This document shows positions 22,609 through 61,013 of a stretch of 62,104 bases of DNA, one piece after another. The DNA is taken from the IMG/VR virus record IMGVR_UViG_3300037189_018914, positions 1-62,104 of that record; one strand, given 5' to 3'. Position numbers and translations under genes: made by a program. The first letter of the stretch is position 1. The number at the start of each line of letters is the position of its first letter. A model generated the notes under the pieces. That model saw only the letters and a program-made list of their open reading frames with translations. It had not been told where the DNA came from and made no database searches. The DNA comes from a virus.

Positions 22609-25600
22609 TCAATCTTCGGCCAAAAAGTGCAACCCAAGAGCCTTTGCTTCCTTCGCCGACAAGGTCTCGCCCCAGTGGACGAAAACCTCGCGGGATGAAC
22701 CGAAATGATATGGACCGGCGTCGATGAGAGAGCCGTCCAACCGACGTGGATAAAAAGGCACGTCGTCAATCATGCACTTCGGGACCACTTCCTTGTACAC
22801 CTGTTCTGCGTGCTCGATGGGCACAATGAGCACGATAGCGTCGTGAATCTGCAGCCCGATCTTGTAGTCGATCTCAGGGTGCTCTTCGCGGTATTTGTAG
22901 AAGTTGTATAACGCGATGGATACCGCGTCGGCAACACCGCCTTGAATCGGGAAGTTCTGTGCCTGCCGCTCTTGCTCGCCGCGGATAGCACGGTCGCTAG
23001 ACGGGACGAACCGCCTGAAACGCCCGTAGGGGCCGACGATCCAACCCGGGTCTTGAGACCGCGAACGGCACTCGGCCAGAAACGTCTTTGTGCGAGGATA
23101 CGACGTGAAATACGCCTCAATCATCGCCTGACACTGATCGGCCGACACGTCCACACCCTCTTCTTTACACTGCCGGGCAAGGGCCTCTGAGCCGCGGCCG
23201 TACGGAATACCGAAGTTCACGTTCTTGGCTGCAATCCGTAAGCCCTTTTTGCCGGCTTTCTCCAGCCCTTTCTTGGTTGGCTCGACGTCAGCAATGCCGA
23301 AGGTCTTAATCGCCTGCTGACTGTGGATGTCGTAGTGGTCCGGGTGGTTTTCCGGCAACAAGTTTCGCCGGATGTGTTCAATAAAGTTCTGGTCCTGACT
23401 CAGCCACGCGAGGACCGCCAGTTCCGCACCAGTGAGGTCCGTTTCGATGCCGACATGGCCTTCTGGCACCCGCAGGATTGACCGGACAGGGTGCTTGTAC
23501 TGATCTTGCAGGATTCGAGAGTAATCGTTTTCTCGCCGAGACGAGAGATTTTGCAGAGGCGGTCTTGATGACGACGCTCGGCCCGTTTCTTTAGTCTGGA
23601 AAAAATGAGTTCGTACTTTTCCGTCCGCGTGAACGCATCCGACCAAACCTTTTTCATACGAGTAATTACCGTTTTCATCGGTTTCAAAATCTCCCTCTTC
23701 CGTGACGTTCGGCTTTCGCAGCACGGACTGCAAAACCTGACTAATAAATTTGTAGTCGCGGATTTTGGCGGCCGTAGCGTTTTCGTGTCCGAGAATACCC
23801 AAACTTTCCTTGTCGGTGCTGGGCACGGCCGTATCAGCATTAACGCCACGCCAGCTTAACTCGTTCCACAGGACAGGCCGCTTGCCGGTAGTCTTCACAG
23901 GCCGCAGATTCAACAACACGGCTCCGTCAGGCACAGACGGCGGATTTGGGTAGCGGTTTGAAAACCGCTCTCCGAACAAGGCAACGGCCAACTGCGGCTG
24001 ACTCTTGGGATTGAATTCTGGCCAGTTCAACTCCGTCCTAATTTCAGCAATCAGTCGGTCCTGCGTGTTCATGAATAATGTTGTCAATTCGTCCGCTCGG
24101 GTGCGGTCGATGACAAGCCCGGTCAGTTCCATCTCCAGAAACGCCAACGAAGCGTTATGGGCCGTCCAGTAGGGCATCCAACAATCGTGGCCGTGGTTGT
24201 CACGGGCCAGCAGGCCGTCATGCCCGTTGGTCCCGTAGAACCGCATCATGATGCGACGCGTGACGTCAACGTCGTAGTTGCCGTACGGGTGCAGGATGTA
24301 AGACGGGCATTCGCCGTACCCGCCGACTTCGCCGGCCTTGAGCTTGTTCTCGGCCCGGTGCCGTTTAATCCACGCGTTCAATTCGTCCCAGTACGTTGGG
24401 GCAGACGTGAACCGCAGTGAGCAGACGTCGAGACCGAAACGGGCACACTCGTTGACGGCGTGGTACATGAGGCTTGTATCCCAACCGCCACGGGTCCGCT
24501 CGTCCGGGTCGTGGGAAGGGGCGTACTCCGCACGTAAATCCAGACCAAAATCAATAAGCCATGGCAAGTCAGCACGGAAAAAGTGACCGCCGACACGGAC
24601 ATCTCGCGACGGCGTGTTTTTGAGCAGCCGTGCAAGGTGGATTCTTGCCGCGTCCAGATTCGGCTTAAACGCCTCTGCCCCTCCTTGATGGCGTAAAACA
24701 ATGCTGCGAGCCCACATATCTTTGTTAGATATCTGGATCGTACGTAAATACGCACCGTCTTCGGTCGGATAGTCGCCGTGCCATTCGCAGTCGATGGCAA
24801 TGATGTTGGCGTTGGGGTCCGGGTCCGCCAGCATCGAATCAACAAGCTCAGACAACGCCTCTTCTGTGTAGATGTCGGCGTGGTCAACTTCTTCTTCCGC
24901 CTGCTCGCGGTCGTTGATCAAATCCTTGAACCGGGCCATCTGACCGGAGAAATCTTCATACATCTCCGGTTTCCGGGCGACATACGCCGGATGCATAATC
25001 GACATGACCTTGATTTCACGCTCGTTGCCTTCGGCGTCGTACGCCTTGATTGTCGTGGAGCGGCCGGCGAGGTCTGACACGCTCTTGTTCGTGTTCAGCA
25101 CGGCTTTCGTGGCCTCGTTGCCGAGACACAGAATGTAGTCGGGCTGGACGAGCCGGATTTCCTGCTGAAGAAGTACGGCACAGTTTTTAATCCACGCCGC
25201 CGGGACTGCCGGTGTGTCCGGCGTGGGTGTCCCAAACTTGCAGGCAAAGGTCACGTACCATTCAGCGTATTCGCGGGGATCGAAATCGTTTTCACGCAAC
25301 GCCCGGAAGAAGGGCTGCATCCCAGAGCCAACGACGGCACTTTGCTCGCTGATCTCTTTCGGGCCGGGAATCTTGCCGACCACCATGATGCGGGCCGGCT
25401 TGGGACCGAAGACGGGGTTGTCGCCCTCGCCGTACTTCATCAGGTGCCCGGGCAGGAAGTACACAAGCTCGGTGCCGTGCTTCAGCATGATCGGCATGCT
25501 AAACCGCTCGTCGTATAGAGCACGCCGATACAGGTGCTCCAGCTTTTCGCCGACCGGGATGGCCTTCTTTTTCTTGGCGTTAGACATCTCCGGGTCGTCG

Positions 25601-25758
25601 CCCAGATCAATAGCGTGGGCAATAAAGTCGGCACCCGCGGGCGGCATGCCGACAGCATCAAGCGGAACCATCGGAAACAGTTCCGCGTTTAACTCTGCTG
25701 CAGAGTTGTCATAGATTACTCGGGCATGCCTGTGTTGCAGGGATACCGACGAAGACAT
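22609..25758 (-). CDS. UDG-like domain / 3'-5' exonuclease / family A DNA polymerase fusion
   Basis: 1049 residues. Residues about 115-280 resemble a family 4/5 uracil-DNA glycosylase: VGKIPGPKEI near 127, GSGMQPFFRAL, DYILCLGNEATKAVL, MHPAYV near 255. Residues about 315-510 form the DEDDy exonuclease (AIDCEWHG D323/E325, FFRADLPWL, YGNYDVD). The C-terminal part is a Pol I-type polymerase: motif A TDLTGAEL (D774, E779), motif B KKGLRIAAKNVNFG then IPYG, motif C IHDA (D973). The Glu that normally follows the motif C Asp is Ala. It is the replicative polymerase of the block, followed by primase and helicase genes. The UDG-like part may detect or remove uracil, or be a structural relic; activity is not provable here. 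Confidence 0.85.
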   Translation of the reverse strand: MSSSVSLQHRHARVIYDNSAAELNAELFPMVPLDAVGMPPAGADFIAHAIDLGDDPEMSNAKKKKAIPVGEKLEHLYRRALYDERFSMPIMLKHGTELVYFLPGHLMKYGEGDNPVFGPKPARIMVVGKIPGPKEISEQSAVVGSGMQPFFRALRENDFDPREYAEWYVTFACKFGTPTPDTPAVPAAWIKNCAVLLQQEIRLVQPDYILCLGNEATKAVLNTNKSVSDLAGRSTTIKAYDAEGNEREIKVMSIMHPAYVARKPEMYEDFSGQMARFKDLINDREQAEEEVDHADIYTEEALSELVDSMLADPDPNANIIAIDCEWHGDYPTEDGAYLRTIQISNKDMWARSIVLRHQGGAEAFKPNLDAARIHLARLLKNTPSRDVRVGGHFFRADLPWLIDFGLDLRAEYAPSHDPDERTRGGWDTSLMYHAVNECARFGLDVCSLRFTSAPTYWDELNAWIKRHRAENKLKAGEVGGYGECPSYILHPYGNYDVDVTRRIMMRFYGTNGHDGLLARDNHGHDCWMPYWTAHNASLAFLEMELTGLVIDRTRADELTTLFMNTQDRLIAEIRTELNWPEFNPKSQPQLAVALFGERFSNRYPNPPSVPDGAVLLNLRPVKTTGKRPVLWNELSWRGVNADTAVPSTDKESLGILGHENATAAKIRDYKFISQVLQSVLRKPNVTEEGDFETDENGNYSYEKGLVGCVHADGKVRTHFFQTKETGRASSSRPPLQNLSSRRENDYSRILQDQYKHPVRSILRVPEGHVGIETDLTGAELAVLAWLSQDQNFIEHIRRNLLPENHPDHYDIHSQQAIKTFGIADVEPTKKGLEKAGKKGLRIAAKNVNFGIPYGRGSEALARQCKEEGVDVSADQCQAMIEAYFTSYPRTKTFLAECRSRSQDPGWIVGPYGRFRRFVPSSDRAIRGEQERQAQNFPIQGGVADAVSIALYNFYKYREEHPEIDYKIGLQIHDAIVLIVPIEHAEQVYKEVVPKCMIDDVPFYPRRLDGSLIDAGPYHFGSSREVFVHWGETLSAKEAKALGLHFLAED

Positions 25759-39391: not shown

Positions 39392-39464
39392 ATGCCCGGG
39401 TAGGATTCGAACCTACAACCGAGGGAACCAAAATCCCTTGCTCTGCCAGTTAAGCTACCGGGCA
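39392..39464 (-). tRNA. tRNA-Gln(UUG)
   Basis: A complete cloverleaf: acceptor TGCCCGG/CCGGGCA, D-arm GCTTAACTGGCAGAGC, anticodon stem AGGGA/TCCCT with loop TTTTGGT (anticodon TTG, reading CAA), and T-arm GTAGG TTCGAAT CCTAC. The U1-A72 pair is typical of tRNA-Gln. Discriminator T, no encoded CCA, so host CCA-adding enzyme would be needed. It supplies a minor codon for a GC-rich genome. Confidence 0.93.
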
Positions 39465-39469
39465 ATAAA

Positions 39470-40048
39470 TTATCTTGGCATCCGCATCATGTACGCAAAC
39501 GTCTTGGCCAACTCGATCGTCACAAGATTGTCTGTCTCGGCGTTGTGCAAGTTGCCTGTCATACCCGGCAAAAAACGCGACCGCAACGCCGCCAGCGAAT
39601 AGCCGCCGCTGTACATGCCCGCCGAGTTCAAAAATCTGGCAATGGACGCGGTGTCCAGAAACGGGTACGTGAAATACTCGTTCCATTGAGTGTCCGTCAG
39701 CAGATTGGCCCGGATAAATTGCACGTCGAAATTGACGTTGTGGCCAGCCGGGATCAGCCGTTTCTTGTTTGTGACCGCACACGCTCGTGAAACATAATCA
39801 AGCAACATGGTTGTAGCATCAGAGATTTTGACGCCTTTATCGTGATGCTCGACCAGATTAATTTTGTTGACCGCCAACGCACCGGCCGTGAGTGCGTACT
39901 CATCGTGCCTGATGCGAAGGTAGAGCCCCGGGTTGTCTTCTCCGAGCGGAACGATGTTGAACCGCTCGTCGACAACGATGAAAGACACGGTCAACAGGCT
40001 GTGTTGCGGAGTCAATCCGCCTGTCTCAGCGTCCATGAACAGGTACAT
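39470..40048 (-). CDS. DnaQ-like DEDDh 3'-5' exonuclease
   Basis: 192 residues. MYLFMDAETGG carries D6 and E8; GHNVNFDVQFI is the second motif; HNAETDNLVT provides the His and last Asp of DEDDh enzymes. Candidates are RNase T- or DnaQ-type proofreading or nucleic-acid turnover. The polymerase at 22609 already has its own proofreading domain, so a separate repair or RNA role is likely. Located beside the tRNA gene. Confidence 0.82.
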   Translation of the reverse strand: MYLFMDAETGGLTPQHSLLTVSFIVVDERFNIVPLGEDNPGLYLRIRHDEYALTAGALAVNKINLVEHHDKGVKISDATTMLLDYVSRACAVTNKKRLIPAGHNVNFDVQFIRANLLTDTQWNEYFTYPFLDTASIARFLNSAGMYSGGYSLAALRSRFLPGMTGNLHNAETDNLVTIELAKTFAYMMRMPR

Positions 40049-40335
40049 CAGAATCCTTCGTCTTCCTGAAACATGTCTTGCTCAAAGCCGACAAATTCGC
40101 CACCGTCGCTATTGAACAACAGACCGGGAACCGTGGAAACAGAATTAATGCTCTCCGACGTTTCTTTGGCGGTGCGGTACAGCAACTCGTAAATCTCGTC
40201 GCCGTGCTCCTTGCCAAAGTGAGTGCATAGCAGTCCGCGTACCGTCAGATACTGATCGTACTCGAACGAATCGCTGCCGCCTTCAAACTCCAACTCGTTG
40301 TCATCGTTAAAGTCAGCAAAAGGGGAAGGTGTCAT
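40048..40335 (-). CDS. Small acidic protein, 95 aa
   Basis: Mostly acidic: DFNDDNELEFEGGSDSFEYD at the N-terminus and FEQDMFQEDEGF at the end, around a helical middle (FGKEHGDEIYELLYRTAKE). Highly acidic small phage proteins sometimes mimic DNA, but nothing specific supports that here. Confidence 0.68.
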   Translation of the reverse strand: MTPSPFADFNDDNELEFEGGSDSFEYDQYLTVRGLLCTHFGKEHGDEIYELLYRTAKETSESINSVSTVPGLLFNSDGGEFVGFEQDMFQEDEGF

Positions 40336-40339
40336 AGTT

Positions 40340-41512
40340 TTAGAAAATACACGTTAATGAAACGAGGCGATCCTGCAAAGGAAACAGATATACGCCTCGC
40401 AGTGAGTAGTGGCGTGGAACCTCATGCCGCATGAGAACCACGTCCTTGCCGTTGGCTCCGGTCTGCACAAGCCGGGCTGTGCTGTAAGGCCCGTACGTAT
40501 CCTGCTGGGCATCGAGAATCACGGTCATGTCCGTAGCGGGCACAGCGAAACGCACGGTAGCCCCGATGGGCCCCGTGGCACCGGTGACGCTCATCCTAAC
40601 CGCCTCTCGGCCCGTGTCAAATACGTGTTCAAGCGGTTTGATGTCCTCGACATCAGTCACGCCACGAAAGTGCGGAGCGTGAAGTTTACCCAGCTTGCCG
40701 TCTCCAAGTTTGACAACCTGTTCAGGAGTCAACACGGAGAACTCGCCAAGCTCTGCGGCCGTTGCCGTCACCGCAAGCATGACCGTCGGGTTTAGATTCT
40801 TGAAATCCTCTGGAGCCGTTGAAACAGCGATATGCTCGTAATCAATTGGCACCGAGATAAACTCGCCGGTCTCGAAGAACACGTTGTGCTGCCCTTCTGT
40901 AAGCACGGATAAACCGCGAAGCGTCTGCCCCAACTTGCCGTCAGGTCTCGTGCCGCGATACGTCACAAGCTGCAAACCAAGTTGAGTAGCCACGTCTGGC
41001 GTAAACGTAACCGGCTCAAATACCCGCCGCACCAGCCGAGCGTTGAAAACCTCGGGAGATACGACGGGCGACTTAGGGTTTTCGGTGGGTGGCTCCGGGC
41101 GAACAGACTCGGCCATCAGTTCGGCCGTGCCGGTCACAATCTCCTGCAGCCGGGTTTCGTCAGGAACATTGGGTGCAGAGTTGTTCAACTCCTCCAGAAA
41201 CAACAGCAGACTCATCTGCAGCACTTCTGGCACCAGTTCATCGGGCACACCCGACTTCTTGACAAGCTGCCGGTATTTGTCGGAGAGCAGCGTCTTGGTA
41301 AACGAGAACGGCACCCGCGGAATGTCGACATACGGAATTGCAGCCAACAACTCGGCGATGTACCAGATATCTGTGGCACTTTTTGTGTGCCGCAGCAACT
41401 CGACGAGTCCAGATAACAAAAACAGTTTTTCGCCCGGGTCGTGTTTGTCCAGCCCGGTGATCAGCTTGTTGAACGGCTTTAAAAAATCTTCTTCTTCTGT
41501 GTTACTGCTCAT
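40340..41512 (-). CDS. Hypothetical protein, 390 aa
   Basis: The N-terminal half is helical (TDIWYIAELLAAIPYVD, LLLFLEELNNSAPN); the C-terminal half is beta-rich (GKLGQTLRGLSVLTEGQHNV, TVMLAVTATAAEL). No family recognised. It directly follows the HTH-DHS-like gene with an 11-bp overlap, so both probably act together. Confidence 0.75.
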   Translation of the reverse strand: MSSNTEEEDFLKPFNKLITGLDKHDPGEKLFLLSGLVELLRHTKSATDIWYIAELLAAIPYVDIPRVPFSFTKTLLSDKYRQLVKKSGVPDELVPEVLQMSLLLFLEELNNSAPNVPDETRLQEIVTGTAELMAESVRPEPPTENPKSPVVSPEVFNARLVRRVFEPVTFTPDVATQLGLQLVTYRGTRPDGKLGQTLRGLSVLTEGQHNVFFETGEFISVPIDYEHIAVSTAPEDFKNLNPTVMLAVTATAAELGEFSVLTPEQVVKLGDGKLGKLHAPHFRGVTDVEDIKPLEHVFDTGREAVRMSVTGATGPIGATVRFAVPATDMTVILDAQQDTYGPYSTARLVQTGANGKDVVLMRHEVPRHYSLRGVYLFPLQDRLVSLTCIF

Positions 41513-42656
41513 GGGAAATCTTTCCGGCGTACACGTCGTTGCAAATTTGAAACAACTGCGTGAAAGCAGCCGTTGTTGGATGGTCTAAAAAGATGACGTG
41601 ACCGCCATGATGGTGGACAAGGGTTTCAAGGTCTGAATCGTATGCGGCAAAAACAACGAACGTAAAGCCGGCCTGTTCAGAAACAGTACTCCGCAGGCTT
41701 TCCATCCGCTGCAAGATCAACCGCAACCAGCGAACGTGCTCGCCGGCAAGAATAGCCACGCCGCCGGGAAAAGAAAAAAAGTTTTGCAGACATTCGGTCA
41801 GTGCCAGCAGGTCGACATATGCGGCGGCACCGACCGCGGCTCCTAATTCGGCTCCACGCAGACTCGGAGCCGTGTGCAAAGAGACCTCGCCAAGCTCCGC
41901 CGCCACGAACACTGGAACGCCAAGCCGATGGGCTGACGCCAGCACGCTCAAATCGGGGTCGCAGGACGGGAGAGCGGCCGTGCTGATGGCTTCTCCGTAA
42001 CCAATGCCACGAGTAGCCGCAAAAAGGGCGAGCAAGTTTAAATCTGTATCTGCTGGCCGGCAGGACGAGGCAAGGTCATACCGCACGGCTGACAGCGTAA
42101 CTGCCAGCACGTCAGCAAAGCCAGCCTGATAAAACGGCAGCACGTCATACGCCGACGAATACGCAAACGGAGTGCTACCTAAAAAAAACCCTACAAATTT
42201 TTGGTGACTACGAGCCCGATACACTGCCCACCCTGCGTTGACGTAGGGTAGCGTGTCGCTCGATTTTGATTCAGGTGGTAATTGCAGCCGCGGGACTTGC
42301 GAATTGGCCGCGGTTATGACGTCAAAAAGCTTAAACGAGCTTTGCAGCGTCGCAGGTAACTGGAGGCCTTCGATATCGTGCGGTGTCCGGCAGATTGGAC
42401 CAACGCCGCAAACAAGCCACTCCGTGCGAACGTCCAATTTCGCGGCGATGTGAGCCAGCAATCGAATTGTTGGCTTTGACCGCCCCTCAAACACATAGGC
42501 CAGTTCGCGATACTTTAAACCCAACGCGAACGCCATCTCGTGGCCGTCGCCGCCGAAGAACAACTCGCTCAAGTAAACAATGCGTTGGCGAACAGGCTCA
42601 TATTCGTACGGAATAAGCCTACGCTGTTTTTGTTTTCTCTGCCTGTCGTTCGTCAT
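41502..42656 (-). CDS. Xre-type HTH fused to a deoxyhypusine-synthase-like domain
   Basis: 384 residues. Residues about 22-90 read as an Xre/HTH_3 domain (ELAYVFEGRSKPTIRLL, LDVRTEWLVCGVGPI, matching the usual GKSKPSxxxLxxIAxxLxVSxDWLLxGxGP end). Residues about 155-350 resemble the deoxyhypusine synthase superfamily: FYQAGFADVLAVTLSAVRYD, then LASAHRLGVPVFVAAELG, HTAPSLRGAELGAAVGAAAY, and GGVAILAGEHVRWLRLILQR. These recall the NAD-binding Rossmann-like core; no clear catalytic Lys region follows. The role is inferred as an NAD- or metabolite-responsive regulator. I know of no such fusion in phages, and the call should be tested. Confidence 0.6.
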   Translation of the reverse strand: MTNDRQRKQKQRRLIPYEYEPVRQRIVYLSELFFGGDGHEMAFALGLKYRELAYVFEGRSKPTIRLLAHIAAKLDVRTEWLVCGVGPICRTPHDIEGLQLPATLQSSFKLFDVITAANSQVPRLQLPPESKSSDTLPYVNAGWAVYRARSHQKFVGFFLGSTPFAYSSAYDVLPFYQAGFADVLAVTLSAVRYDLASSCRPADTDLNLLALFAATRGIGYGEAISTAALPSCDPDLSVLASAHRLGVPVFVAAELGEVSLHTAPSLRGAELGAAVGAAAYVDLLALTECLQNFFSFPGGVAILAGEHVRWLRLILQRMESLRSTVSEQAGFTFVVFAAYDSDLETLVHHHGGHVIFLDHPTTAAFTQLFQICNDVYAGKISHEQ

Positions 42657-43653
42657 GACTGGCGGCCTTCTTGGCCTTTCTGGCTAATTCGATCAAACCG
42701 TCGCCGGCTGTTTTAAATTTGCCAGACCCGCCAAGCATACGCTGTTTGGCCAGCACGCTCAATCCGGCCGCGGTCAGGTCAAGGTCTTCCCGCAAATGTT
42801 CAAGCGGATAGGCGGCAAACGGAATGAAAGAAATAATCGCATCGTCGTTGACAGAGCCCGTCAGCAACACCGTGTTGTTAAAAACAACCTTGGCGTCGCG
42901 TACAACCGTGACCGGCGGTTTTTTGCCGGGAACCGTAAGAAAGAACTGACGCAACTGAAGTCGCCAGCCGCCTTCGGAAGCTATAGGGATAATACGCCAC
43001 ATGGACGCCGCGGTGTGTCTGGTAACAGATCGTCTTCGACTAAACACGGCTTGTTTAAAACGAGCAATGCGGCGGCTGATCACCTTCGTCGCAGCACTGT
43101 ATGTCTCCGGCGGAGCATGCTCTAGCGAGTCGACAGCCTCGAACGGAACAAACTGTTCTGAAATGTGCGTGGTGGCGTAGAACCGAACAAGCGAATCTGC
43201 TTTGACGCAGGCGGCGATAAACCGTTCGTACTGCTTGAATTGCTGTTCAACCACGCGAGCCCAGCAAGCCGGGCAGTAGTTGTAATGTCCGCACGACTTG
43301 AACCGCTTCTTTTGCGTCTTTGGCGGATAGATCACGCCGGGCGGCCGGCACCAGCAGCAAAGTTTAAACGCGTTCAACAGCCGGTCTTGGTCGCAGTAGT
43401 GCTCATCGGCAACAACGCCAAACACCGGAAAGCGTTTTTCAAACCGGGCCATGTCGAAGGTCCGGTCGAGAAACTGGTCGCGAATGTCGTTAATTTGCTG
43501 ACGAACGTCATCAAGGTCAGCCTGTCGCGGGATGCCGTACACCGCCGCCAGTGACACAAGATGCGGCGTCTGATTTCGCCGATTAACGATAAACAGCCTG
43601 TAGTTTCGAGCCTTGTGGTACTCGGGCTCCAGAGCGTCTTGTATAAAAGACAT
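42619..43653 (-). CDS. Zinc-cluster protein of unknown function, 344 aa
   Basis: A central Cys cluster (CCWCRPPG near 99-106 and SCGHYNYCPACWARV near 120-134) probably binds zinc. The rest mixes strands (LVRFYATTHISEQFVPF) and basic helices, ending Lys-rich (GLIELARKAKKAASHDERQ). The Cys pattern slightly recalls zinc regions of plasmid Rep proteins. The 3' end overlaps the HTH-DHS-like gene by 38 bp, so the pair may be coupled. No safe function. Confidence 0.68.
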   Translation of the reverse strand: MSFIQDALEPEYHKARNYRLFIVNRRNQTPHLVSLAAVYGIPRQADLDDVRQQINDIRDQFLDRTFDMARFEKRFPVFGVVADEHYCDQDRLLNAFKLCCWCRPPGVIYPPKTQKKRFKSCGHYNYCPACWARVVEQQFKQYERFIAACVKADSLVRFYATTHISEQFVPFEAVDSLEHAPPETYSAATKVISRRIARFKQAVFSRRRSVTRHTAASMWRIIPIASEGGWRLQLRQFFLTVPGKKPPVTVVRDAKVVFNNTVLLTGSVNDDAIISFIPFAAYPLEHLREDLDLTAAGLSVLAKQRMLGGSGKFKTAGDGLIELARKAKKAASHDERQAEKTKTA

Positions 43654-44159: not shown

Positions 44160-44477
44160 GTAAGCCTCCGTGCGTTGTGTTGCTAGCGTACCGAAAACGG
44201 GGGAACCGTCAACCTACGTCAAAATGTCGTTTTTCCGGGGGAAACAGCGGTTTTGGCAAAAACTCAGAAACCAAAAGTGTGAAAAATTTTTTCGTCGTAA
44301 CTCGTTGCTGGCAAAGATCTTGCGACGAAAAAATGCCAAATTCTGTCCCACTTGACCGATCTACTTCGTAGAAGACCTCTCTTTCAGAGAGAAGAATTGA
44401 AAGGCAGTACACACTGCCTTTCCAATAGTCTTTTGTCTTGATGGTTCTAAATACCAACCCCGACACACTAAATTCCG
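44160..44477 (-). other. Non-coding region with stacked inverted repeats
   Basis: The largest gap without a convincing gene, AT-richer than its surroundings. On the minus strand it has GAAAGGCAGT-GTGT-ACTGCCTTTC (44422-44399), CTCTCT-GAA-AGAGAG (44391-44377 as paired arms), CTTC-TAC-GAAG (44374-44364), and TTTTTTCGTCG pairing with CGACGAAAAAA (44333-44323 and 44297-44287). It may be a regulatory leader, attenuator, small RNA gene, terminator array or replication start. A possible 85-codon frame from GTG at 44466 to 44209 lacks a ribosome site. Confidence 0.6.
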
Positions 44478-45667: not shown

Positions 45668-46104
45668 CAGTTGTTCTCCGGGTTGATGGGTGGTGGGCGG
45701 TGGTCTCGATCCTCCGTCTCCGGGCCGCTTTCGTCGTCCGGGGTGTACGTCGGGTCGCCGCCAAAGTTGATGGTGACGCCGTGGAAGCCGGCGTACTTCA
45801 TCGCCTTGCCGAGCAGCGTGTACTCTTCGTCTGAGTACATGGACCCGAAGGCGTTTTGATGAATAAACAAGTTGGCCGTATCGCCCTGCTTGGCTTTTTG
45901 ACACGCGATTGCAAAGCTTGGCAACTTAGTTTCGATCTCTTTTTTGAGGGCGAGGCGGCGTGCTGACCAGACTTGCTTGGAGACGACTTCTTCGTTGCCG
46001 TCGTTCTCTTCAAGAATCGTGTCAAGTTCGACGCCTGCTCGCTGCAGCCGTTTCTGCAGCCGCCGCATCAATTCTTTTTTGTCGTTCTTTTTGTTTCGGC
46101 TCAT
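45667..46104 (-). CDS. Hypothetical protein, 145 aa
   Basis: A basic helical start (KKELMRRLQKRLQRAGVEL), then a helical-strand region (LGKAMKYAGFHGVTINFGGD) and a disordered acidic/Pro tail. ATGA overlap with the methyltransferase gene, so they are co-translated. No family recognised. Confidence 0.7.
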   Translation of the reverse strand: MSRNKKNDKKELMRRLQKRLQRAGVELDTILEENDGNEEVVSKQVWSARRLALKKEIETKLPSFAIACQKAKQGDTANLFIHQNAFGSMYSDEEYTLLGKAMKYAGFHGVTINFGGDPTYTPDDESGPETEDRDHRPPPINPENN

Positions 46105-47660
46105 GTCGCCTCCTCGATAATTCCAATGTTGACAAAATCCTGAAAGTACGTGCTGAAGAACGTGTCGCAGAGCGTCTGGATGACGGCTACTCGTTCTTCG
46201 TGCGTGGCTAGCTTGACGCCGCCTTTTTTGAGTTCCTTGCCGGACTTTTCTACGTGCACGGTGACACGTTCGGCGAGGTCGGGCAGTCCCCGCTCGATTA
46301 GCTCGTGCAGGATCGTGGCGTTGAAGTCGTTGAGGATGTGACCGGTGCCCGTCAGTTTGCTGGCCAAGGAAACGGTTCGGCCCATAAGCAGATTGTTTGC
46401 CAGCATTTGTCGATTAAATTCGCTGTTGATTTGCAGCTTGCTGTTTGATCGCAAATTTGAGCCGGTAGTCACGGACGCGACCTCGACCTCAAAGATTCCC
46501 ATGCAGGCCCCCACGTCGAGGGCACTGACGATCTCTTCGGGCGTTATGGAGCCCCAATCCTTGCTGGACAGTATCTCGGACAGTTTCATGCCCTTGCCCG
46601 TTAGGATGGCTGCTAGGGCCTCGTAGACAGGTCCCTGAGCCGCGGCGGTCACGACGCCAAGATTGACCGTGAACGGGAACTCGATGTCTGCCCGCATGAG
46701 GCGGAAGTGGAACTGGTCCGCGTGCTGGAGCCGGGCTTCCAGCGACGGCATCGCAATCGGCTCCCGGCAGTACACATCCCAGCGAAACGCCGTATTCGCA
46801 CAGAAATCTTTGTGCGTTTCAATGGTGTTTCGGTCGGTCGTGGTGCTGAACAGTTCTTTGAATTCGGGGCGGACGCACAGGTCCCAAAAATTATCGTGCG
46901 GCGGCAGACTGCCGATAAATTCAAGACCTGCTCGGTTGAAGTCATTTGCAACTTCGTAAAAGTAAAACGTGGCCCAATGCTCGTTCAGATACTCGTGAGC
47001 GAGGTAGCGGGGATTTTGTCGCGTAAACAACTCGATTTTTTCGGATACCATCGGGTTGTCTTCAAAGTATTGAGCCTTGTTGTCGCGGATATATTTGAGG
47101 TATTTGAGAGCCTCTGTGATCCGCTGCATACTGTCGCCTGAACGCCGCAAAGCGTATTGCTGCAGGATTGCTCGAATCGGCTGTAACGCCGCCCAGCCCG
47201 GCATGGCGTTGTAGCTGACCAGCAAAAGACCCTGTTTAGCCAGATGCTTTTTTGCGACGCGAACGATGGCTTCTCGCACCTCGGCGGACACCCAGCTATA
47301 AACGCCGTGCAGGGCGATGAAATCAAACTCCCCTATGTCATCGGGTAAATTCTCGAAGCCGGCCGTGATGACTCGGACGTTATTTAACTTTCCCGCCGCG
47401 ACGTCTTGTTCGATGATCGCTGTGTGGTTGGGGTTGAAGTCTACGCCGACAAATTCTCCGCGTGGATTGGCCGCGGCAAGAGTCGTCAGGCAGCGGCCAA
47501 GCCCGGAGCCTAGTTCGAGATATCGGAAGCCTTTGTCTGTTGCCGGCGGGCGAACACGGTTTATGGTCGCGATGAACTGCATCGCGATCGGGGCCATGTT
47601 TCCATAAAACCCCGGAATGTAATCTACGTCAGAAATATATCCTTTTCCGTCGGCGGCCAT
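46101..47660 (-). CDS. Class I SAM methyltransferase with C-terminal regulatory domain
   Basis: 519 residues. Motif I LELGSGLGRCLTTLAA at 48-63, GEFVGVDFNPNH (motif II) and FDFIALHGVYSWVS mark the Rossmann-like SAM domain; LLLVSYNAMPGWAA follows. The remainder (about 210-519) corresponds to the MethyTransf_Reg plus helical tail layout of bacterial proteins of unknown target. The substrate is unknown: a small molecule, protein or nucleic acid. Good GGAG at the start. Large for a phage methyltransferase and not of a DNA-methylase type (no DPPY or PC motif). Confidence 0.78.
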   Translation of the reverse strand: MAADGKGYISDVDYIPGFYGNMAPIAMQFIATINRVRPPATDKGFRYLELGSGLGRCLTTLAAANPRGEFVGVDFNPNHTAIIEQDVAAGKLNNVRVITAGFENLPDDIGEFDFIALHGVYSWVSAEVREAIVRVAKKHLAKQGLLLVSYNAMPGWAALQPIRAILQQYALRRSGDSMQRITEALKYLKYIRDNKAQYFEDNPMVSEKIELFTRQNPRYLAHEYLNEHWATFYFYEVANDFNRAGLEFIGSLPPHDNFWDLCVRPEFKELFSTTTDRNTIETHKDFCANTAFRWDVYCREPIAMPSLEARLQHADQFHFRLMRADIEFPFTVNLGVVTAAAQGPVYEALAAILTGKGMKLSEILSSKDWGSITPEEIVSALDVGACMGIFEVEVASVTTGSNLRSNSKLQINSEFNRQMLANNLLMGRTVSLASKLTGTGHILNDFNATILHELIERGLPDLAERVTVHVEKSGKELKKGGVKLATHEERVAVIQTLCDTFFSTYFQDFVNIGIIEEAT

Positions 47661-59516: not shown

Positions 59517-61013
59517 TCAGTTATCAGACGCGTTCGGGGCAGTGATCTTACGGCGACCGCTGGACGGCACTGCCTGCCGCGGCTTTCCCACCCGCGTATA
59601 CAACCCCGGATTGTCAGCCGACAGGCAACGGCCCTCGGCCCACTTTCGCAGGTGCTCGATCTGTTCGGCACTGGTCACAGCGACCGGAACGACGTTCTGG
59701 GCCGCTTCGATCAGGGAGATGTCCAGCAGGGCCGCCAGACGGCAGCACGCCTTGACCTCGGCACCGGTCCAGTTGGTGTCGTCGGGACGCTGCTGGGCTT
59801 TGTCGAGCCCGAAATGGTTCAGGTAGATGTCCCAGATACGCTGCCGCTGCTCGTCCGCCGGCAGGTCCACGAAGAACACACCGTCAAAACGTTCGGCACG
59901 GGCAAACGGAGCCGGAAGCTGACTGGCATCGTTGCAGGTGCCGATAAAGAACACGTCCGACGTGTGGTCGTTAAGCCACGTCAGAAGCGTGCCGAACAAC
60001 CGGGCCGAAACGCCGCTGTCGGTTTGGCCGGAGCCACCGACGCCGGCAAGACCCTTCTCGATCTCGTCGACGAACAGGACGCACGGAGCCATGGCATCGA
60101 CCTGCTTGAGAGCACGCCGCATGTTGCCCTCGGACTCGCCCACGAACTTGCCCATCAGGCTGCCGAAGTCGAGCATTACGGTCGGGCGGCCGACCTCGTT
60201 GCCTAGAGCTTTGGCGAACTGCGACTTGCCGCAGCCCGGAGGCGAGAGCAGCAAGACACCCTTGGGCCGCTTATCGACGTTCTTCTCGCCCTGACGCCGC
60301 ATTGCCCGCAAGCAGAATTGCTTGAGGTTTTCGAGGCCGCCAAGGTTATCGAAGTTTGCATCGCCGCGATACAGGGTCATGGTGCCGCTCTTTTCGAGCG
60401 TCTGAGCCTTGATGCCCCAGATGGTATCCGGCTCCAGCTTGTTATTGCGGACCAGCGACAGGGCATAGGCGTTCTCGGCCTCCTGTCGGGTCAAGCCGCG
60501 GGACGCCTCGACGACGCTGTTGATCTGCTCTTCGGTCGGCTTTTCAAACGTCTTATCGCCGTTGAACAGGTCGTTGCAGATGCTCTTAAGCTGCGTCTCG
60601 TCGGGCAGTTCGTGATGCACGACCGTGAACAGTTTTTCGACCTCGGGCTGCAGGGCAACCGTCGGAGCCACAACGATGACATAACGACCCTCGCCCTTGC
60701 CCTGCACGACCCGGTTGGCCAGTGCCTGCAAAACCTCGGGGTTGGGAAGATAGCGATGGAAATTCTTAAGAACGAGAATCTGCGTCTCGTTCGTCTTGGG
60801 CAGGTCCATAGACCGGATCGCCTGAAGAGGACCCGGTGCCGGCGTTAAGCCAGAATAAAGCTGGCGGTCGATGTCCCAGACATCAAAGCCCCACTTCCGG
60901 TCTTCCGCTAACTTGCGGATGGTGGCGACGGCGTCGTCGCACTCCACGGACTCAACCCAGATACCGGAAAAGCCTGCACAGACGAGTTCTTTGATCTCTT
61001 TTTCGAGTGACAT
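59517..61013 (-). CDS. AAA+ ATPase, Ycf46-like
   Basis: 498 residues. The N-terminal about 200 residues resemble the Ycf46 pre-AAA region (KNFHRYLPNPEVLQALANRV, with VIVVAPTVALQPEVEKLF). The motor has Walker A SPPGCGKSQ at 257-265, LMGKFVGESEGNMRRAL, Walker B LFVDEIEK near 313-320, sensor I FFIGTCND and arginine fingers ARAERFD. A disordered tail follows. AAA enzymes of this type unfold or remodel proteins. With the DUF2997 and DUF1257 genes immediately upstream it forms a recognisable cassette. Confidence 0.85.
   Translation of the reverse strand: MSLEKEIKELVCAGFSGIWVESVECDDAVATIRKLAEDRKWGFDVWDIDRQLYSGLTPAPGPLQAIRSMDLPKTNETQILVLKNFHRYLPNPEVLQALANRVVQGKGEGRYVIVVAPTVALQPEVEKLFTVVHHELPDETQLKSICNDLFNGDKTFEKPTEEQINSVVEASRGLTRQEAENAYALSLVRNNKLEPDTIWGIKAQTLEKSGTMTLYRGDANFDNLGGLENLKQFCLRAMRRQGEKNVDKRPKGVLLLSPPGCGKSQFAKALGNEVGRPTVMLDFGSLMGKFVGESEGNMRRALKQVDAMAPCVLFVDEIEKGLAGVGGSGQTDSGVSARLFGTLLTWLNDHTSDVFFIGTCNDASQLPAPFARAERFDGVFFVDLPADEQRQRIWDIYLNHFGLDKAQQRPDDTNWTGAEVKACCRLAALLDISLIEAAQNVVPVAVTSAEQIEHLRKWAEGRCLSADNPGLYTRVGKPRQAVPSSGRRKITAPNASDN

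Follow-up and report, generated by a model that had tools for sequence, protein, structure and literature searches.

In phage CI repressors the C-terminal domain is of the peptidase or dimerisation type. The bacterial protein BzdR joins a repressor HTH to a shikimate-kinase-fold domain that has lost catalysis, and is a tested regulator (PMC3602430). Among enzymes, deoxyhypusine synthase (DHS) is a tetramer with NAD bound at the dimer interface. Its activity requires Lys329 and His288 (PMC7226451), and also Glu137, Asp316, Glu323 and Trp327 (PMC7581365). The GSU2086 family (NF052581) consists of uncharacterised bacterial proteins of ~320 aa that occur in Geobacter, Acidobacteria, Latescibacteria and Chloroflexota. 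Its cellular genes adjoin heptose-type sugar genes (PMC5585712), as they also do in the loci collected here, where the GSU2086 domain is fused to a nucleotidyltransferase that appears by eye to be of the RfaE2 type, or lies beside HAD, SIS and PfkB-type genes (L076 442-1863, minus strand; L078 1336-2763, plus strand; L079 442-1866, minus strand; a neighbour in L077; and L113). These fusions and neighbours point to a role for the family in heptose or nucleotide-sugar synthesis.

The window analysed here spans all 62,104 bases of an IMG/VR virus record. Its minus strand encodes a 384-aa protein with exactly the boundaries given in the initial annotation, and the plus strand of 41502-42656 holds no open frame, being closed by stops. 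A basic N-terminal arm (residues 1-18) precedes an HTH, and a linker joins the HTH to a C-terminal domain. The features of the protein are as follows.

41502 to 42656, minus strand: coding sequence of the HTH/DHS-fold protein, 384 aa (translation and 25 homologous IMG/VR loci)
42387 to 42602, minus strand: Xre/lambda-repressor-like HTH, residues ~19-90 (profile searches, AF2 model and structure matches)
41520 to 42284, minus strand: C-terminal GSU2086/DHS-fold domain, residues ~125-379 (profile, profile-profile and structure comparison)
41637 to 42041, minus strand: match to NCBIfam NF052581, the GSU2086 family, residues 206-340 (profile search)
41874 to 41897, minus strand: phage-invariant, pocket-like loop ELGEVSLH with E254, G256, E257 and H261 (alignment and AF2 model)

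The repressor-like HTH that had been proposed for the N-terminus was borne out by profiles and by structure. A PHROG repressor profile matches the HTH of the window protein at 7e-5, and Pfam HTH_3 reaches 0.018, so that the HTH alone falls under the Pfam cut-off. When a profile of 20 aligned family members was searched against the PDB, the HTH first matched that of a transcriptional regulator (3e-4) and next those of the CI (2fjr) and 434 repressors. The AF2 model has five helices here (residues 19-34, 38-45, 49-56, 64-74 and 78-83), and the BFVD matches of this part are phage repressors and HTH proteins. The five helices and the profile-level similarity thus place it among Xre/lambda-repressor-like HTH proteins. 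The N-terminal arm is net-basic in nearly all family members, and the HTH and the C-terminal domain are about equally conserved, with mean identities of 43% and 47%, respectively. We infer that the protein binds DNA in a sequence-specific manner.

The C-terminal domain had been described as DHS-like. The three motif stretches quoted for it are present in the order given, and the assignment to the DHS superfamily holds at the level of fold; the closest family, however, is GSU2086, and the C-terminal domains of ArgZ and AgrE fit the fold no less well than DHS. NF052581 matches the window protein (P0001) at 8e-10 and 38.7 bits, and the profile also picks up every one of the 13 proteins in the first family alignment, the best at 3e-29. 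Where measured, phage copies score 35-70 bits (69.7 for P0003), below the curated cut-off of 250 bits. Profile-profile comparison (hhalign) between the phage domain and GSU2086 proteins from bacteria gave 99.7-99.8% over 231 columns. The profile matches and the hhalign result establish common descent of the core domain with the GSU2086 family. GSU2086 in turn aligns with bacterial DHS at 97% over 280 columns, and its profile finds ArgZ (7e-6) and LOR/SDH (4e-4) in the PDB. Direct comparison of the phage domain with DHS is weak (61%, 109 columns), and hence the link between the two runs through GSU2086. Three family members match Pfam DS weakly (best 0.006), P0001 has no significant direct sequence match to DHS, and the phage-profile search of PDB sequences found the HTH and no DHS or LOR/SDH (ArgZ/AgrE) chains. 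By sequence, then, the nearest relative of the C-terminal domain is the bacterial GSU2086 family rather than DHS, and GSU2086 is itself related to the LOR/SDH-type domains at the C-terminus of ArgZ and AgrE and to DHS.

The AF2 model of the 384-aa protein is of moderate confidence (pLDDT 77, pTM 0.66). Its least certain part within the domain is the loop at residues 258-266 (pLDDT <50), which contains H261 and the end of ELGEVSLH. A structure search against DHS had been suggested as a check, and VIA on residues 125-379 returned DHS at Z ~15.5-15.8 (235 residues, 4.1 A), within an overall range of 15-16.6. The C-terminal domains of ArgZ and AgrE gave Z 16.6, and LOR/SDH (M. maripaludis 3c2q) gave Z 15.3. 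Because these values differ too little to rank, with the LOR/SDH-type domains matching on a par with DHS, we assign the fold to the DHS/LOR-SDH group.

We compared residues in a merged alignment of 22 phage members with GSU2086 proteins. A segment of about 20 residues in GSU2086 (TSEDV...FG...TG, with invariant T, E, G and F) is deleted in the phage domain, and the greater part of the residues invariant in that family is missing from it. Gone are the invariants H68, N93, H99, E102, D185, K236, R283, R291 and H306, as well as R242 and N243; H179 is missing except in part of one clade. The GxGxGE turn, S237, P248, G256, H261, P264, D282 and G305 are retained, and D100 persists as D194 in 20 of the 22 members. 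The phage proteins have also gained invariant residues (E254, E257, E270, R309 and C372, each 22/22), and H261 is likewise invariant in all 22. Since ancestral residues and motifs have gone and the domain has an invariant set of its own, it is altered yet under selection. The absence of an evident catalytic lysine, remarked on earlier, is confirmed by the alignment: the DHS motifs DSS.G, GGG.PKN and EA.SWGK occur in no phage member, and the domain lacks both Lys329 of SWGK and His288. The lysine of a conserved AGK at the C-terminus was dismissed as a candidate for the DHS lysine, since it follows the final helix and several members have Q or T in its place. The cofactor turn is TTGAG or close to it in one clade (L017-L044), and is degenerate in the window clade, where it reads TLSA, TLPA, TLTA, TLGA or TLAA. 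The change of the TGA/TTGAG turn to TLSA, TLPA or TLTA argues against plain NAD binding in the window clade. A regulatory or scaffold role seems likely for the domain, although the invariant acidic and His residues at about 254-270 could just as well make up an active site of a new kind.

The same fusion of HTH and C-terminal domain is present in 25 IMG/VR loci, down to ~29% identity. A few of these are near-identical copies, many lie on contigs of 190-205 kb, and each long contig holds one copy (16/16). Recurrence in 25 loci argues that the architecture arose neither by chance nor through faulty assembly. The initial annotation knew of no such phage fusion, and outside IMG/VR we found none in INPHARED, PLSDB or 311 bacterial genomes. 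INPHARED has no homologues of P0001, and the L017 protein matches only repressor HTHs there. The one match in PLSDB is a plain GSU2086 gene, which a Chloroflexota plasmid carries next to HAD and SIS genes. For cellular genomes our survey took in two phyla, plus a single genome-contig scan with a narrow pattern. Among the 247 + 64 bacterial genomes of these phyla, relatives of the domain start no earlier than profile position 112, and none shares a frame with an HTH match. The literature searched yielded no regulator-type HTH-DHS fusion. We do not class the protein as a defence component because PADLOC gave no convincing matches.

In the window the fusion gene is the second of four genes. Its partners are listed below.

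42619 to 43653, minus strand: cassette gene 1, 344 aa, zinc-ribbon-like, with four invariant Cys and a 38-nt overlap with the HTH gene
40340 to 41512, minus strand: cassette gene 3, 390 aa, of no known family, overlapping the end of the HTH gene
40048 to 40335, minus strand: cassette gene 4, 95 aa, acidic, of no known family

This order is kept in all 20 loci examined. The frames of genes 1 and 2 overlap in every one of them and the third usually overlaps, while the other neighbours vary. Neither the 344-aa nor the 390-aa family gave a match when its profile was searched against Pfam and the PDB, and we found no relatives of the 390-aa and 95-aa families. The 344-aa protein model is confident (pLDDT 89). 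Its best VIA match is SIRV1 ORF119 (2x3g), a Rep protein, at Z 6.9 over 110/116 residues, a value within background for unmatched models. Foldseek returned several plant, circovirus and parvovirus Rep domains with poor E-values (best 0.19), and no HUH motif is evident in the protein. The modelled resemblance to viral Rep folds is therefore weak and only suggestive.

Phage-like genes around the cassette encode a family A DNA polymerase, a DnaB-like helicase, a primase, a UvsX-like recombinase, a thymidylate kinase, an SbcD-like nuclease and a DnaQ-like exonuclease. The polymerase (1049 aa, 22609-25758, minus strand) has only distant relatives in INPHARED, and by eye its N-terminal part resembles a uracil-DNA glycosylase domain. 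Elsewhere in the window, also on the minus strand, are a methyltransferase with a MethyTransf_Reg domain (46101-47660; Pfam 5e-21), present in some relatives only; an AAA+ ATPase (59517-61013; phrog_8638, 4e-84); a collagen-like and probable fibre protein rich in GATGPQ repeats (600-2105); and tRNA-Gln (TTG) at 39392-39464, the sole tRNA found.

Upstream of a SEC-C gene and the cassette lies a conserved non-coding element (44255-44385, minus strand). It occurs at the same place in L007, L008, L010, L012, L013 and L028, and as a variant in L017 near 1355. The element contains a hairpin or palindrome of the form NNTAC-GWA-GTANN whose stem letters covary, the pairs being TTCCTAC/GTAGGAA, TCTTTAC/GTAAAGA and TGTAGGTAC/GTACCTACA. 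The hairpin is followed by TTCGG..AA..GACATTT and GCGTCGTAA. Rfam had no match for the element, and a DNA pattern search found it in three viral stretches only. The element is a candidate operator or structured leader RNA, and the palindrome near 44361 a putative operator. We also weighed a long inverted repeat (44286-44334) as an operator or terminator and set it aside, as it is not conserved in relatives.

That an HTH and an altered enzyme fold always stand together in the same cassette suggests an enzyme turned regulator of genes or of replication. We favour, as somewhat the likelier outcome, a DNA-binding regulator built from a repurposed enzyme fold, BzdR-like in principle. The initial annotation had offered either an NAD or polyamine sensor or a repurposed enzyme, and the latter is the better half of that proposal. 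Under the regulator model, the protein would have arisen in a lineage of large (~200 kb) uncultured phages when a copy of the enzyme-like GSU2086 domain, with its DHS fold, became fused to an Xre-type HTH. The enzyme-like half would have lost the ancestral active site and would most likely serve as an oligomerisation core and as an effector- or partner-binding domain, so that the protein would work like a repressor or activator. It probably acts with its zinc-ribbon-like, 390-aa and acidic 95-aa cassette partners. A regulatory role, oligomerisation and a ligand are what we infer for the 384-aa protein.

The invariance of the cassette, with its overlapping frames, in 20/20 loci and the presence of DnaQ-like exonuclease and SbcD-like genes nearby would also suit a scaffold that binds DNA within a complex for replication initiation or genome maintenance. 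In that case the protein would not be a transcription regulator; gene 1 would be Rep-like and the 384-aa protein its origin-binding, oligomerising partner. The SIRV1 ORF119 match and the viral Rep domains among the Foldseek matches fit such a complex, but the former lies within background, the best of the latter reaches 0.19 and gene 1 is without an evident HUH motif; we think it possible but unlikely. A DNA-tethered enzyme with a new reaction, acting for instance on DNA-bound or nucleotide-linked substrates, might explain why polar residues (E254, E257, H261, E270, R309, Y220 and E222) are conserved across 22 members and why one clade retains TTGAG. Most GSU2086 invariants and the DHS catalytic Lys and His motifs have gone, however, and the cofactor turn of the window clade is degenerate, which makes an active enzyme improbable. 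Phages do carry polyamine enzymes (PMC9992855), and the C-terminal domain has the DHS fold, both of which count towards a deoxyhypusine or homospermidine synthase whose HTH is incidental. That proposal is contradicted by the alignment, in which no member has the catalytic Lys or the motifs of the His288 and D243 regions, and the sequence is closest to GSU2086, not DHS; we regard a polyamine gene as very improbable.

Should the regulator model prove true, it would be another natural case of an enzyme fold becoming a DNA-binding regulator, here in phages. To our knowledge, a DHS-type fold has not been seen in that role before. In large uncultured phages the four-gene cassette, with its fixed order, stands out as an unexplained core module, and the widespread GSU2086 family emerges as part of the DHS/LOR-SDH superfamily. 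A bolder proposal, which we hold only tentatively, is that the protein represents a phage regulator class of its own, in an undescribed jumbo-phage lineage. A GSU2086/DHS-fold domain that senses a metabolite (NAD-related, polyamine or nucleotide-sugar) would act as a switch on the Xre HTH, and the protein would form, with the three partners, a master control or replication-initiation complex.

Compared with known systems, the 384-aa protein shares its N-terminal HTH with CI-type repressors, which are without a DHS fold in the C-terminal domain. ArgZ and AgrE join their LOR/SDH-type domain to an arginine dihydrolase module and have no HTH, whereas the phage protein has one. With deoxyhypusine synthase and DHS-type homospermidine synthase (PF01916) it has the fold in common, but it differs from these enzymes in being without the EA.SWGK lysine, GGG.PKN/KHH and DSS.G. 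Homology to GSU2086 extends over the 231 aligned columns and includes the common motifs GxGxGE, S.....P, G....H..P, Y/F.D and GG....G; the cellular members seen are without an HTH, unlike the phage protein. BzdR regulates benzoate genes in bacteria, and its effector and operator are known. The enzyme folds of BzdR and the 384-aa protein, shikimate-kinase in the one and DHS/LOR-SDH in the other, are unrelated. In design the two proteins are the same: an HTH, a linker and an enzyme-derived domain, which has lost catalysis in BzdR and the ancestral catalytic motifs in the phage protein.
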